Source: an uncultured Chlorobiaceae bacterium (lineage in GTDB: Bacteria; Bacteroidota; Chlorobiia; Chlorobiales; Chlorobiaceae). Taken from it: 56,693 bases of DNA. The position numbers were made by a program, and so were the translations under genes. Location of the stretch: the NCBI GenBank assembly GCA_903824295.1, contig CAIJWE010000128.1, forward strand, positions 1 to 56,693, in the 5' to 3' direction. Shown here piece after piece: positions 8,752 to 51,907 of this stretch. Positions within the stretch are counted from its first letter, which is position 1. Each line of letters starts with the position of its first letter. The notes under the pieces are model-generated. The model was not told the DNA's origin. It saw nothing but the letters and a program-made list of their open reading frames with translations, and did not search any database.

Positions 8752-9903
8752 ATGTTCAAGGTATTTGTTTTTATCCCGACAATTCTGATAACACTTGCTG
8801 GTTGTGGCTCGTTTTTGCCCTCATCTGGTCCAAGCGCGACAGGGGTAAATCATTCATCAGATTCTAATCGCATTAAAGATATTCAGATTATTGAGCTTAC
8901 TGATGGTGTGGTTCAAAAATTGATTCTTTTTCAGAAGCAGAATTTTTTTTCCGAAACATTTGCAGAACGGGTGATTTCCACTCAAGAGATTGGTGCTGGC
9001 GATGTTATAGAGGTGTCAATATGGGAAGTCCCGCCAGCACTTTTTGGCGGTGTTCTTAATGGTCAATCCTCAGGTTCCGGTGCGGCACAGATGACCAGGC
9101 TTCCGGAACAGATGGTCAGTCTGGACGGAACCATCAATATTCCATTCGCAGGCCAGATCCCTGTTGCTGGTTGCAGCCCTCAGCAAGTTGAGGCAAATAT
9201 TAAACAGAGTCTCAGAGGCAAGGCTAATCAGCCGCAGGTGCTTATACGGATGGTGCGCAACAATACGGCCAATGTAACGGTGGTCGGCGAAGTAGTTACC
9301 AGCTTACGGATGCCTTTGACTGCGAGGCGGGAGCGTCTGCTCGATGCTCTGGCTGCGGCTGGCGGCGTGCGCCAGCCGGTCAATAAAATGACGTTGCAGT
9401 TGACACGAGGCAGTCGGGTAGAATCACTTCCGCTCGAAACGATCATCCGGGATCCACGGCAGAATATCACGCTGCGGCCTGATGATGTTGTTACTCTTTT
9501 ATTCCAGCCGCTCAGTTTTACGGCTCTTGGAGCGGTTGTCAAGAATGAGGAGATAAGCTTTGAGGCGCAGGGAATCTCTCTGGCGCAGGCGCTTGGTCGT
9601 ATTGGGGGATTGCAGGATTCGCGTGCAGATGCTCAGGGTGTTTTCATCTTCAGGTTTGAATCACCAAAGTTATTCGGAAAAAATGACGACACAATAGCTA
9701 CCGGATTTGGAGGGCTGATACCTGTTATTTATCGGGTTAATCTGAAAGACCCTGCCTCTTTTTTTCTTGCGCAGCACTTCACGATGCAGAACAGGGATAT
9801 TTTATATGTGTCGAATGCTTCTTCATCTGATCTTCAGCGTTTCTTAAGTCTACTTGTTTCGGTTGTTTATCCTGTTGTTCACGTCATTGATGCTTTGCCA
9901 TGA
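8752..9903 (+). CDS. Polysaccharide export outer-membrane lipoprotein (KpsD/CtrA/BexD type)
   Basis: A 383-residue OPX-family protein that should form the outer-membrane and periplasmic channel for capsule export. The start is set at ATG 8752 because it yields a lipoprotein signal, MFKVFVFIPTILITLAGC, with a LAGC lipobox; the longer frame from 8674 would bury this. The polysaccharide export domain starts at GAGDVIEVSIWEVPP (about 80), and VVTSLRMPLTAR and further SLBB-like beta-grasp segments follow. The length agrees with CtrA/BexD (about 380-390). It is the first gene of the capsule locus and pairs functionally with the KpsE, KpsM and KpsT genes downstream. Confidence 0.85.
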   Translation: MFKVFVFIPTILITLAGCGSFLPSSGPSATGVNHSSDSNRIKDIQIIELTDGVVQKLILFQKQNFFSETFAERVISTQEIGAGDVIEVSIWEVPPALFGGVLNGQSSGSGAAQMTRLPEQMVSLDGTINIPFAGQIPVAGCSPQQVEANIKQSLRGKANQPQVLIRMVRNNTANVTVVGEVVTSLRMPLTARRERLLDALAAAGGVRQPVNKMTLQLTRGSRVESLPLETIIRDPRQNITLRPDDVVTLLFQPLSFTALGAVVKNEEISFEAQGISLAQALGRIGGLQDSRADAQGVFIFRFESPKLFGKNDDTIATGFGGLIPVIYRVNLKDPASFFLAQHFTMQNRDILYVSNASSSDLQRFLSLLVSVVYPVVHVIDALP

Positions 9904-9981
9904 GATGACTCTCTCTAAGATGGCGGACTTATTTGACGGAACAGTGATTGTTTTGAGCATGGTTCAATCGATGGATACCTC

Positions 9982-11247
9982 ATGATATGCAATGGGATTG
10001 AGACATTCAGGGGACGCAGGGTGCTCATGCTCCAGGGCCCCGTTGGGCCATTTTTTTGTCGATTGAGTCGTGATTTTGAAAGTATTGGAGCTTTGGTGTT
10101 CAAGGTAAATTTCAATGGAGGAGATTGGTTGTTTTATCCCCGTCACTCCATTTCTTATCGAGGAACGCTTGAAGAGTGGCCAGCCTTTTTTGAGAACCTC
10201 GTTATTGAACATCGAATTGATGATGTTCTTCTGTTTGGAGATTGCCGGCCAGTCCACCTTGCGGTCAGGAAAATTGCCATGAAGCGGAACCTCAGGATAG
10301 GAGTCTTCGAGGAAGGCTATGTTCGTCCGGACTATGTCACATTCGAACTATTCGGAGTGAACGCAAACTCTTCCCTGCCTCGAAAGGCCGATTTTTACCT
10401 CAATGGAGCTTTGTGCTCTCCCCCTCCGCAAGAGAAAGTCGGCAAGAGTTACTGGTACATGGCTGCATGGGCCGTTTTGTACTACCTGGCAAGTGCATTC
10501 TTGAATCCTCTGTTCCCTCATTATGTGCACCATCGTCCCCTTACACTCATGGAACTGTTTCCCTGGATTCGCAGCGCATGGCGAAAGCTCTATTATCGCG
10601 TTAAGGAACGGGAAATTCATGGACGTCTCACAAAAGGGTTTGGAGGCAGATACTTTTTGGCGCCACTGCAGGTTCACAATGATTCGCAGCTTCTGGTGCA
10701 CTCTGAATTTGATTCAGTACACGATTTTATCAAGGGAGTCGTTGATTCGTTCATGATGCATGCCCCGAAGGATTTTTTACTGGTCATCAAACATCATCCG
10801 CTCGATCGGGGTTATTACGACTATTCTCGCTTGATCAGGGATCTTGTAAAAATACACCACCTTGAAAATCGTCTTCTCTATATCCATGATCAGCATCTTC
10901 CCTCATTGATCAGAAACGCCTGTGGGGTTGTGGTGGTCAACAGCACCGTTGGGTATTCTGCATTGCTGCATGGCAAGCCTGTGAAATGTTTGGGTGCTGC
11001 ATTCTACGATATCGCAGGCATGACTTTTCATGGTACACTCGATCAGTTCTGGTTGAATGCCACCACGGCCAAACCTGCCAGGCCTCTTCTTCAAAGTTTT
11101 CACAAGTACATGATAACGCGAAGCCAACTTAACGGTAGCTTTTACAGACGTTTAAAAAAAAATGAGGATGGTGCAGGGCTTGTTTGGAAACACGAGATAA
11201 ACACGGAAATCAATTCGCATTCGGAAAACGCTCACTTATTTTCGTAA
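9982..11247 (+). CDS. kpsS: Capsule polysaccharide Kdo-linker transferase, KpsS type
   Basis: A 421-residue member of the capsule polysaccharide synthesis family. KpsS adds the first beta-Kdo to lysophosphatidylglycerol on the cytoplasmic membrane, beginning the lipid anchor of ABC-exported capsules. Visible motifs are RVLMLQGPVGPFFCRLSRDF at the N-terminus, EEGYVRPDYVTFE (about 111), KHHPLDRG near 270 and VNSTVGYSALLHGKPVKCLG near 315. These correspond to the donor-binding half of the family. The stop lies one base before the ATG of the KpsE-type gene. KpsC, its normal partner, is at the far end of the locus. Confidence 0.85.
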   Translation: MICNGIETFRGRRVLMLQGPVGPFFCRLSRDFESIGALVFKVNFNGGDWLFYPRHSISYRGTLEEWPAFFENLVIEHRIDDVLLFGDCRPVHLAVRKIAMKRNLRIGVFEEGYVRPDYVTFELFGVNANSSLPRKADFYLNGALCSPPPQEKVGKSYWYMAAWAVLYYLASAFLNPLFPHYVHHRPLTLMELFPWIRSAWRKLYYRVKEREIHGRLTKGFGGRYFLAPLQVHNDSQLLVHSEFDSVHDFIKGVVDSFMMHAPKDFLLVIKHHPLDRGYYDYSRLIRDLVKIHHLENRLLYIHDQHLPSLIRNACGVVVVNSTVGYSALLHGKPVKCLGAAFYDIAGMTFHGTLDQFWLNATTAKPARPLLQSFHKYMITRSQLNGSFYRRLKKNEDGAGLVWKHEINTEINSHSENAHLFS

Positions 11248-47587: not shown

Positions 47588-48550
47588 ATGGCACAACCAA
47601 CGTCACTTCCGACCAGCAAATTCAATAGTTATCGGCAGGAGCAGCTCAATATCCAGGCATCTCAGGACGTAGATGCTGCGAAACGAGCAACCTACGAGCT
47701 TTCATTAATGGAGAACAGTTGCTTTATAGAGCTGAACGGTATTGTTCATCATTATCACGACTCAGGCCCCAGAGATGCCAAAGAGACGGTTGTGCTTATT
47801 CATGGCTGGGATTGCTGGTGGATGTGGTGGCATCATGTGGTCAACTATCTCAACAGCAAAGGGGTACGGACCATATCCTACGACATGCGCGGGCATGGGT
47901 GGTCGGATAATGATCCAAAGAACCACTACCACATCGACTTTTTTGCACATGACCTGCGTGAGCTTGTCAACAAGCTTGAGCTTACAGGGTTTCATATCGC
48001 TGCGTTTTCTTTCGGGCCGTTTGTAGCGCTCGATTATGCCCGTTCGAATCCCGGTCTTATTCGCTCGATGACCTTTTTCAATTTTGGCATGCTCCCGAAC
48101 AATGCCTTTATCAAGGCAGTTTCATCGAATATTATTCCCTTCGTTTTCAATAATATGTTGCGGAAACTGACCTGGTGGTTTCCTGCCTATGTCTATGCAC
48201 GGTTGGTGCTGGCCAAGAATCCGGTTCCGCATCATGATATTCTTATAGCGTTCAGGAGTCTCGGGCTCTGTGCACCGGATGCCATTGAACAAACAACCCT
48301 TCAGATAACCTCTTATGAGGTAACTGGCTCAGTGCCTGATATGGTCAGGGCGGTTGATGCCTCTCTTCTTTTTGTGGCAGGGGCGGGAGATGCGATCATG
48401 ACCTGCAAAAACACCAAAAAGCTGGTTGAGCTGACCGGTAAGGGTCGCTATGTTGAAATACCGAAATGCGGGCACTTGATCACCGTTGAATTGCCAGATA
48501 CGGCCTCGGAGCTTATTATTGGGCATCTTGCAACCGTGGCGGGCCGTTGA
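47588..48550 (+). CDS. Alpha/beta hydrolase
   Basis: A 320-residue soluble hydrolase. The oxyanion motif is VVLIHGWDCWWMWW near 74, the nucleophile elbow AAFSFGPFVALDYA near 138 carries the catalytic Ser, the acid is likely in VAGAGDAIMTCKN and the base in KCGHLITVELPD. The Trp-rich motif after HG and the FSFGP elbow are unusual within the family. The substrate is unknown. Its end overlaps the convergent trpF gene by 35 bases. Confidence 0.85.
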   Translation: MAQPTSLPTSKFNSYRQEQLNIQASQDVDAAKRATYELSLMENSCFIELNGIVHHYHDSGPRDAKETVVLIHGWDCWWMWWHHVVNYLNSKGVRTISYDMRGHGWSDNDPKNHYHIDFFAHDLRELVNKLELTGFHIAAFSFGPFVALDYARSNPGLIRSMTFFNFGMLPNNAFIKAVSSNIIPFVFNNMLRKLTWWFPAYVYARLVLAKNPVPHHDILIAFRSLGLCAPDAIEQTTLQITSYEVTGSVPDMVRAVDASLLFVAGAGDAIMTCKNTKKLVELTGKGRYVEIPKCGHLITVELPDTASELIIGHLATVAGR

Positions 48551-49202
48551 CGTCAACAGAGAGCGCTTCGCGTGCTGCTTTGGTGAATGATCTCATTTTT
48601 AAACTGTCCTTGATACCGGCTGCGGTTTCTACTCCGCTTGCGGTATCAACGCCGTAGGGCTGGATTCGGCGGATTGCTTCGCCGACATTGGTGGCCGTCA
48701 GCCCTCCGGCCAGTATGGCATAACAGGAGTCACCAAGTTCTCGGAAGATACGCGCTGCAAGAGAGAGTGTTATGCTCTCTCCTGTTCCGCCAGCTATGCC
48801 GGGCCGATAAGCATCGAACAGGAAGGTGTTGACGCCGCTTTCTCTGGCAAATTCAAAAACCTCCTCTACCGCAAAATTTTCTTCAGGCCTGAAAACCTTG
48901 ATCACATTTGCCTCGGTGATTGATCGTGCCTGCTCAGGGCTGTACTGTTCGCTGTGCAATTGCGCAATCTGGAGCTTGCAGTAGCGGCAGATGGCATTAA
49001 TCTCTTCAGGTGACTGATCAACAAAGATGCCTGCCGATGCAACAAAGGGCGGCAGTTTTTCAATGATCTCCTTCGCTCGTTCAGGAGTTATTGCCCGTGG
49101 ACTCAAGCTGCTGAAATTGAACCCAAGTGCATCCGCACCAGCCCGGCACGATTCGAGAGCATCCGTCAACCGGGTTATTCCACAGATTTTTATTTTTACC
49201 AT
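48516..49202 (-). CDS. trpF: Phosphoribosylanthranilate isomerase
   Basis: A 228-residue (beta/alpha)8 enzyme that converts phosphoribosylanthranilate to its carboxyphenylamino-deoxyribulose form in tryptophan biosynthesis. The catalytic Cys is in KICGITRLTDA at the N-terminus, and the catalytic Asp in FLFDAYRPGIAGGTGES near 125. The phosphate-binding end of the barrel is AILAGGLTATNV and GVDTASGVE. The stand-alone gene is not next to other trp genes. Its 3' end overlaps that of the hydrolase gene. Confidence 0.92.
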   Translation of the reverse strand: MVKIKICGITRLTDALESCRAGADALGFNFSSLSPRAITPERAKEIIEKLPPFVASAGIFVDQSPEEINAICRYCKLQIAQLHSEQYSPEQARSITEANVIKVFRPEENFAVEEVFEFARESGVNTFLFDAYRPGIAGGTGESITLSLAARIFRELGDSCYAILAGGLTATNVGEAIRRIQPYGVDTASGVETAAGIKDSLKMRSFTKAAREALSVDVNGPPRLQDAQ

Positions 49203-49489: not shown

Positions 49490-51706
49490 ATGGAGTATAG
49501 AGTCGCTTTATCATATGCAGGTGAGGATCGGCTTTTCGTTGAATATGTTGCTGATATACTAAAGAAATATATAGGAAAAGACTCTGTCTTTCACTACACA
49601 TCGGGGCCTCACCAAGCAACTATCAATGCTTTTTTTGATTTTATTAATACCTCTTTTGCGAACGAGAGAGCCGATACTCGAGATATTGTAAGAACCGTTT
49701 GTTTTGTTCGTAAATTTAAATTTAATAGAAAGTTATTTATTGTTACCGGACAAGAGACTGAACTTCTTGATAGGGAAAGCAATCCAAGGGGATCTAACCT
49801 TGATCAGTGTTGTACATGGCAAGGGTTGACTAATTCTAGAATGGCTAACAGATTAAATATTGGTACTATATTTGTGACATTACCAGAACATGGTCTTCAA
49901 GACTTGGAGCCATGGTCAGTATCTTTTAATAAAGATTGTTTTGGTCAGAAAATAATTGAGAGTGACCCTGTTTCCGATATCGACCGATCTTCAGCCGAAA
50001 ATGTTGCAGAATTTATTTTACGTGATACATTGGAGTTGAAGCATTCAAAACATTCCTGCAAAGTGTTTACCTATGAGAAGAACGCCATCAAGTTCTACTC
50101 AGAGCTTATGAGTGATTTGAGAAAAAACCCGTTTACACGATTCGGAGAGGAAACTGACCAAAAATATATCAAACTTTTTGCCAAGGATCTTAACGTCATA
50201 TTCAATGAGGGAGTTCCTCTTGTATGGCCGAGTGTTCGGTTACGAACTGATCTGACGTTTACTGCCAATACCTTGCTCAAAGATATTGGTGATGCTCGTC
50301 CTGGATTTGGATCTTTGATATCAGATCAAGTAGTGCCTAACACGGGGGATGAAAACGAACGTGTTGTTGTTTCATCAGCTTTGAGTGAACATCATCATTG
50401 TGCTGACCCGCCTTATGATTCCCAAGCGTGTATGATTCGCAGCAATCTCTGTTTTCCTGAGGCAGGACCACGTTCCAAAATTATGGAATTACAGAGAAAA
50501 GTTGGTATCGTTGTTGGTGGTGGTATTGCTCCAGGCATTAATGCGGTGATTGATGGCATTGTGAGACGACATGAAGATTATAGTATTAATGTAAAAGTTA
50601 TTGGCTTTGAATATGGGCTTTGGGGGCTAAGCCAGAATGCCATAGATATCTCCCAATACAAGAGAAATCTGTCATCAACACGTAACTTGCCAGATGCTCT
50701 CAAAACCGCTGACCATGTGTCACGTGCGGGTTCTGTCTTGGGTACTTTCAGGCTTGATCGGGAGCCTGAAGACGAATTTAAAAATAGGATGGATCAAATT
50801 CTTGAAAATCTTCGAGGATTGGATATTCTATATATGATCGGTGGAGATGGTACTATGAAAGCGGCAAATTTGCTTGCAAAGCTTGCAAGAAAGAGGTCTC
50901 TTTCAACTTCGATTATTGGAATTCCAAAAACTACTGATAATGATATCCTTTGGGTTTGGCAGTCTTTCGGTTTCGCGACCGCTGTCGAGAAAGCAAGGGA
51001 GATTATCAATTGCCTCTCAATTGAAGTTCAATCAAACCCTCGGATCTGTATTCTTCAGCTTTTTGGTTCAGTGTCTGGTTTTGTTGTGAGTCATGCTGTT
51101 TTATCGAGCGATTCCGGCCAATGCGATGCCGCGCTTATTCCTGAATCAAAATTTACGATCAAGGCTCTTGTAGCAAAACTGCGTCGAAAATTTGTGCATG
51201 ATATTGAACAGCCTGAGCAAATTCCATATGGGCTTGTTGTGATGGCCGAGACTGCGATTCCTGAGGACGCTGATATGTATGTCACAGATGCTTGTTTGAG
51301 TACTCCCGAGCGAGAAGCACTTAACAATTATAAGAGTGAACCGATTTACCTTGACGGTCAGACAAGTGATGAACTTCGTTCAGCTTCGCTAAAATTAGTT
51401 GTGGCCGGTATCAAAAAAGAACTTGCTAGTCATTTTAAGACGGTCCGAATTTTTACAAATGAACCTCGGCATATTCTCAGAGCAACCAATCCCAGTTTTG
51501 CCGATATCATTATGGGGCAACGTCTTGGTACCTTGGCCGTGGACAATGCTATGGCAGGTTACAGTAATTTCATGGTAAGCCAGTGGCTCACTGAATATGT
51601 ATTGGTTCCGCTTCCGTTGGTAACATTGGGCAGAAAGCGCATTCCAGATTCCGGAATATTCTGGAAGTCGGTTTTGGCAAAGACTGAGCAGGGAGACTTG
51701 ATGTAA
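49490..51706 (+). CDS. Fusion of TIR-like N-terminal region and phosphofructokinase-like domain
   Basis: A 738-residue protein preceded by AGGAAAAG. The N-terminus YRVALSYAGEDRLFVEYVAD resembles the first strand and helix of TIR domains; after about residue 35 the resemblance fades, and the next 300 residues are not a family I recognise, though WQGLTNSRMANRLNIGTIFV and EHHHCADPPYDSQACMIRS look conserved. From about residue 332 a phosphofructokinase domain is clear: GGGIAPGINAVIDG, IGGDGT (451-455), IPKTTDND (478-485, keeping the catalytic Asp), a degenerate FGSVSGFVVSHAVL, and LGTLAVDNAMAGY. Gly at GGDG suggests ATP rather than pyrophosphate use. The gene is AT-rich compared with neighbours. 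The function is unknown; conflict signalling is a possibility. Confidence 0.8.
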   Translation: MEYRVALSYAGEDRLFVEYVADILKKYIGKDSVFHYTSGPHQATINAFFDFINTSFANERADTRDIVRTVCFVRKFKFNRKLFIVTGQETELLDRESNPRGSNLDQCCTWQGLTNSRMANRLNIGTIFVTLPEHGLQDLEPWSVSFNKDCFGQKIIESDPVSDIDRSSAENVAEFILRDTLELKHSKHSCKVFTYEKNAIKFYSELMSDLRKNPFTRFGEETDQKYIKLFAKDLNVIFNEGVPLVWPSVRLRTDLTFTANTLLKDIGDARPGFGSLISDQVVPNTGDENERVVVSSALSEHHHCADPPYDSQACMIRSNLCFPEAGPRSKIMELQRKVGIVVGGGIAPGINAVIDGIVRRHEDYSINVKVIGFEYGLWGLSQNAIDISQYKRNLSSTRNLPDALKTADHVSRAGSVLGTFRLDREPEDEFKNRMDQILENLRGLDILYMIGGDGTMKAANLLAKLARKRSLSTSIIGIPKTTDNDILWVWQSFGFATAVEKAREIINCLSIEVQSNPRICILQLFGSVSGFVVSHAVLSSDSGQCDAALIPESKFTIKALVAKLRRKFVHDIEQPEQIPYGLVVMAETAIPEDADMYVTDACLSTPEREALNNYKSEPIYLDGQTSDELRSASLKLVVAGIKKELASHFKTVRIFTNEPRHILRATNPSFADIIMGQRLGTLAVDNAMAGYSNFMVSQWLTEYVLVPLPLVTLGRKRIPDSGIFWKSVLAKTEQGDLM

Positions 51707-51824: not shown

Positions 51825-51896
51825 TGGGGCGTCGCCAAGTGGTAAGGCATCGGCCTTTGGAGCCGACATCCGCAGGTTCGAATCCTGCCGCCCCAG
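51825..51896 (+). tRNA. tRNA-Gln (TTG)
   Basis: The acceptor stem TGGGGCG pairs with CGCCCCA; the anticodon arm TCGGC-CTTTGGA-GCCGA holds TTG, read as Gln; the T arm contains GGTTCGAATCC. Seventy-two bases, no intron, with a G discriminator; CCA is not encoded in full. Confidence 0.95.
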
Positions 51897-51907
51897 CAAG
51901 TTAAAAC

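Follow-up and report, generated by a model that had tools for sequence, protein, structure and literature searches.

An uncultured green sulfur bacterium of the family Chlorobiaceae carries a gene whose product, as judged from sequence and a predicted structure, joins an N-terminal TIR domain to a C-terminal ATP-type phosphofructokinase (PFK) of the trypanosome kind, in which nearly all catalytic residues are retained. The gene is very rare. The best explanation for this protein, here called TIR-PFK, is an immune or stress effector in which a TIR NADase would be gated by a metabolite sensor of the PFK type, a reading to which we give about even weight.

Locus and insertion site

The features of the locus are collected in the table. 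No same-strand partner gene of TIR-PFK was found within the window, that is, the whole stretch of 56,693 nucleotides analysed. The gene has a GC content of 41% (GC3 34%) compared with 47-53% (GC3 48-61%) for the neighbouring genes, in agreement with the first-pass annotation, which had described it as AT-rich. Among 394 genomes searched across the phylum there was one orthologue, an intact frame of 742 aa with 64% identity, which a second species of the genus carries at the same site next to trpF; a search of the genus places TIR-PFK in 2 of its 65 genomes. The two Chlorobiaceae alleles are 74% identical in the PFK half but 49% in the TIR half, and in the PFK part dN is 0.19 against a dS of 2.2. 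An intact orthologue at the same site and a dN far below dS indicate, far beyond chance, that the frame encodes a real protein.

Features of the TIR-PFK locus in the window
Feature	Position	Strand	Remarks
trpF, bordering the insertion gap on the left	48516..49202	-	divergent from the TIR-PFK gene
TIR-PFK fusion gene, whole coding sequence	49490..51706	+	738 aa, ATG start
TIR domain, residues 1-185	49490..50044	+	invariant Glu91 in QxxE motif
Glu91 codon	49760-49762	+	within QxxE motif of the TIR domain
Family linker, residues 191-328	50060..50473	+	YEK ... WP ... EAGPR; ~130 residues
Phosphofructokinase domain, residues 329-738	50474..51703	+	GGDGT 451-455, PKTTDND 479-485, FGS 525-527, PRHILR 659-664
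tRNA-Gln(ttg), bordering the insertion gap on the right	51825..51897	+	

The gene order abH-trpF-tRNA-Gln-ahcY is kept in congeners, and in those compared the gap between trpF and tRNA-Gln lacks TIR-PFK; the empty site of one of them (G010) aligns with both borders of the insert in genome G122. The flanks of the two TIR-PFK hosts are 88-93% identical whereas the gene itself is only 66% identical at the DNA level, as expected for alleles that were swapped, arrived separately or diverge fast. The first-pass annotation had regarded the gene as acquired and its position beside a tRNA as a sign of this. The acquired character and the adjacent tRNA-Gln were confirmed, but the arrangement does not resemble classical integration at a tRNA: TIR-PFK is located 5' of the tRNA and occupies a gap that relatives leave empty. 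In the comparison with G122 and G010, the protein encoded by trpF of the window is only 83-84% identical, against 99% for ahcY and 95-96% for the hydrolase gene.

The TIR domain, the linker and the phosphofructokinase domain

As a single query, the N-terminus of the window protein matched nothing in Pfam, PADLOC, NCBIfam, PHROGs or plasmids, and a scan of genome contigs with its first 330 aa was likewise without a match, so that the TIR assignment needed relatives. When 22 N-termini of the family were scanned individually, 21 matched the Pfam family TIR_2 at E<=1 (best 5.7e-13), the sole miss being the window member. The DUF4062 profile weakly matched eight of them, and a TIR profile built from the family finds the TIR domain of Cat1, the CRISPR-associated TIR effector of type III systems, at 1.2e-6. 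Glu91 is invariant in an alignment of 20 members and remains so with 22. In a profile alignment with Cat1 it falls on E74, which lines the NADase site (PMC12162218). The catalytic glutamate of TIR NADases resides on helix C and is matched here by the invariant Glu91.

Structure prediction of the N-terminus, with which the first-pass annotation had proposed to look for an alpha/beta fold, gave a TIR-like model for residues 1-197 (AF2; pLDDT 75, pTM 0.77) with the TIR domains of SPARTA (Z 10.2), AbTir (Z 9.4) and RUN1 (Z 9.1) as matches. Some non-TIR flavodoxin-like folds score Z ~9 with the same model, and the fold alone would therefore not decide the identity of the domain. Foldseek alone gave weak TIR matches only (E 7e-3), and VIA-align ranks TIRs at the top. 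Together with the TIR_2 matches of the relatives and the PF00365 match described below, these results uphold the earlier reading of a TIR and a PFK domain in one chain. The earlier statement that the middle 300 residues match nothing did not hold, as the TIR domain extends to about residue 185 and is followed by a linker that is conserved across the family. An HMM of this linker ranked the N-terminal arms of two stand-alone PFKs (L036 and L039) first and fourth among ~680 sequences, with E values of 0.5 and 3. This is suggestive only, and the linker may correspond to the N-terminal arm in this PFK clade.

The C-terminal half matches Pfam PF00365 over residues 337-685 (E=1.5e-45) and NCBIfam PRK06830 over residues 312-737 (E=3e-67), the latter with 226.8 bits, which is below the curated equivalog cut-off of 400 bits. 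By sequence and by fold the closest PFKs are the ATP-dependent enzymes of the trypanosomatid and Leptospira type, with T. brucei PFK (2hig, 6qu3) as the nearest entry in the PDB; they have GGDGT and PKTxDND in common with TIR-PFK but carry no TIR domain. Among 20 members, Asp483, Asp485, Arg518, Glu587, Arg653, Arg664 and Gly454 are invariant, His661 is found in 19, and Asp453 is replaced by Glu in three. The catalytic roles of these positions, such as that of Asp483 as the base, are presumed to be those of E. coli PfkA, and a GGDG motif with Gly454 is of the ATP type. The substrate motif MGR is FGS in all 20 members; T. brucei PFK has MGR and a glycine at the position of Arg162, whereas TIR-PFK has FGS and an arginine there. 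With nearly all catalytic residues retained and MGR changed to FGS, the domain may be able to bind ATP and transfer a phosphoryl group, but its substrate could differ from fructose 6-phosphate (F6P). One 926-aa TIR-PFK (L040:9383-12160) has an insertion of ~190 residues within the PFK domain.

Distribution of the family and its gene neighbourhoods

When 84,980 species genomes were scanned with a two-row alignment of the window protein and its 742-aa orthologue, 27 loci were obtained. The scan relied on two exact peptide patterns and would miss members that lack them. Most of the loci encode proteins of 670-930 aa with the same layout as the window protein, several others are truncated where their contigs end, and the stand-alone PFKs mentioned above make up two of them (L036:5799-7241 and L039:9770-11218). 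The latter, termed 'NDILWVW' PFKs, are ~480 aa long and have no TIR domain, yet they share NDILWVWQSFGF and FG[SA] with TIR-PFK; in them FGA replaces MGR. The roughly 20 full-length relatives come from about a dozen phyla and include one from a Hodarchaeote. No TIR-PFK was found in viral contigs, and 294-347 genomes each of Planctomycetota, Acidobacteriota, Verrucomicrobiota and Thermodesulfobacteriota (>1,300 in total) contained no new full-length member.

In PFK trees all TIR-bearing members form one clade (support 100/100, and 95 in a wider set) with the stand-alone 'NDILWVW' PFKs as the sister group, from which single clade it follows that the family probably arose by one fusion event. Phyla are intermixed within the clade, with 15 label changes against a shuffled mean of 16.2, and horizontal spread of a clade thus scattered against taxonomy is part of the best explanation. 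A single MAG carries two distant copies (L016 and L040). In a Bacteroidia MAG, TIR-PFK is split into two overlapping frames (L028:3112-5239); RyR and TrkA genes lie upstream of them and a DUF4062-STAND gene downstream.

The first-pass annotation had noted the lack of operon partners, which is correct for the window; at other loci RyR, RelA/SpoT-TPR-RyR, TrkA-channel and DUF4062-STAND genes recur. Of the Pfam domains in the 85 neighbours within 4 kb, RyR ranks first with seven proteins, ahead of TIR_2, RelA_SpoT and TrkA_N. At 6 of 22 loci a RyR gene lies within 5 kb of TIR-PFK, where 0.09 would be expected from the RyR counts per genome (Poisson P ~1e-9, before allowing for the ~105 families examined); about two thirds of the loci have no RyR neighbour. 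LSDAT (SLOG), RyR and TrkA_N neighbours occur at several loci, other TIR genes are also nearby, and genes of the DUF4062-STAND type adjoin TIR-PFK at four loci. Large RelA_SpoT-RyR proteins are encoded near TIR-PFK in L033:6079-8694 (-), L035:2037-4703 and L016:11583-14459 (-); two of them have TPRs, an LSDAT (SLOG) domain was scored in L033, and all three are possible alarmone-type signalling proteins. A further RelA_SpoT gene near TIR-PFK, in L030, is cut by the contig end. In an Acidobacteriaceae MAG (L026:4837-11350), a RyR-AAA gene, an RtcR-like sigma54 activator and TIR-PFK form an operon-like trio.

Homologues of RyR-AAA exist in both Chlorobiaceae genomes with TIR-PFK, unlinked to it. 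The one in G122:C66 (L081:9154-11868) is intact with 905 aa; that of the window genome (L080, G000:C48:26000-45000, at about 9313-10443) comprises 376 aa of the C-terminal part only. RyR is found in 20 of the 65 genomes of the genus, both TIR-PFK genomes included, and phyletic coupling within the genus was not significant; given these counts and the lack of linkage, no RyR coupling is shown there. No ThsA, CD-NTase or Argonaute partners were present among the first 25 Pfam families and the PADLOC tallies of the 85 neighbours, and no model of a known defence system in PADLOC-DB 2.0 matches the window protein.

Possible functions of TIR-PFK

Known TIR effectors carry sensors such as CARF, STING, SAVED and APAZ. 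Like TIR-PFK, Cat1 has an N-terminal TIR domain, the same glutamate in place and a sensor domain in the same chain; its sensor, however, is a CARF domain for cyclic oligoadenylate and Cas10 is required, whereas TIR-PFK has a PFK instead. Although the TIR half resembles them most closely in structure, the TIR-APAZ protein of SPARTA and the AbTir NADases have no PFK, and SPARTA is triggered by an Argonaute. Swarozyc, which comprises DUF4062 TIR-like NADases, resembles the family in the weak DUF4062 matches and in the neighbours of that type noted above but has no PFK sensor. A preprint (PMC13174449) reports antiphage activity for DUF4062 proteins, which it describes as TIR-like NADases. A literature search, which did not take in Burroughs et al. 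2015, found neither the TIR-PFK architecture nor experiments on it, and no characterised homologue, as the first-pass annotation had supposed for a TIR joined to a kinase; in view of that scope no priority is claimed for the architecture. Burroughs et al. reportedly described a nucleotide-signalling conflict network of RyR, LSDAT (SLOG), RelA and TrkA, the same neighbour domains as at TIR-PFK loci.

The effector reading builds on domain identity, active-site residues in both halves, the one-clade fusion, the patchy distribution and the neighbours. It keeps to the hypothesis of the first-pass annotation, which still ranks as the best, that the kinase-like domain detects or produces a phosphorylated metabolite while the N-terminal part signals or kills; of the two findings that were to overturn this hypothesis, neither the lack of an alpha/beta fold nor a widespread housekeeping enzyme was borne out. 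A PFK sensor gating a TIR effector agrees with the modular logic seen in Cat1, TIR-STING and TIR-SAVED, and also with the rarity of the gene, the divergence of its alleles and its neighbours. The TIR domain would be an NAD-cleaving enzyme acting via Glu91 and held off until triggered, and the PFK-type module, with its ATP-class fold that is tetrameric in relatives, would be both sensor and assembly platform. Infection or stress would shift the PFK ligand, which may be a sugar phosphate, ATP/AMP or, where RelA/SpoT-type partners are present, a nucleotide from them; the PFK module would then rearrange and bring the TIRs together, and the cell would be halted as NAD is broken down or converted to a signal. 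NAD cleavage, the ligand, gating by the PFK and protection against phage are the parts that we infer. Doubt comes from the window itself, where no partner gene adjoins TIR-PFK and the RyR-AAA homologue of the genome is truncated, as well as from the loci without RyR and the absence of a PADLOC match.

Apart from MGR, the PFK half retains its catalytic residues, and the protein could therefore be an enzyme first and a sensor incidentally. A working phosphofructokinase would phosphorylate F6P, or a sugar phosphate akin to it, at the expense of ATP; the TIR domain would be a scaffold or NAD(H)-responsive regulator, and the whole would be a metabolic switch rather than a killer. The near-complete set of catalytic residues, the strong constraint and the better conserved PFK half speak for it; extreme rarity, scattered distribution, another PFK-like locus in the same genome (G000:C59), the RyR/SLOG/RelA/DUF4062 neighbours and FGS in place of MGR throughout make it rather unlikely. 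Somewhat less probable again is that the TIR domain makes a messenger of the cyclic ADP-ribose type for a SLOG/LSDAT-RyR or TrkA-channel effector under control of the PFK part. Such a division of labour would follow ThsB of Thoeris, whose TIR is used for signalling to a SLOG protein, and would suit the LSDAT, RyR and TrkA_N neighbours, but at most loci, the window included, no such receiver adjoins. The housekeeping glycolytic enzyme with an odd N-terminus, which the first-pass annotation had weighed against its own proposal, and likewise a decayed gene, are very improbable. The silence of Pfam on the TIR region of the window protein would agree with either, yet both were rejected in view of open frames kept in ~20 genomes, the invariant Glu91, purifying selection and an occurrence in 2 of 65 congeners.

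For the gated effector, we hold only tentatively that a glycolytic-enzyme fold would here, as a first case, trigger a TIR immune effector; infection would be read as a change in glycolytic metabolites, adenylate charge or a RelA/SpoT-SLOG-RyR signal, and NAD would be destroyed in answer. If true, an enzyme fold would join the list of immune sensors and the little-studied RyR/SLOG/RelA neighbourhoods would be set beside a clear effector. Through a PFK sensor, antiviral shutdown would be coupled directly to central metabolism, and whether immunity reads glycolysis would become a test on one protein.
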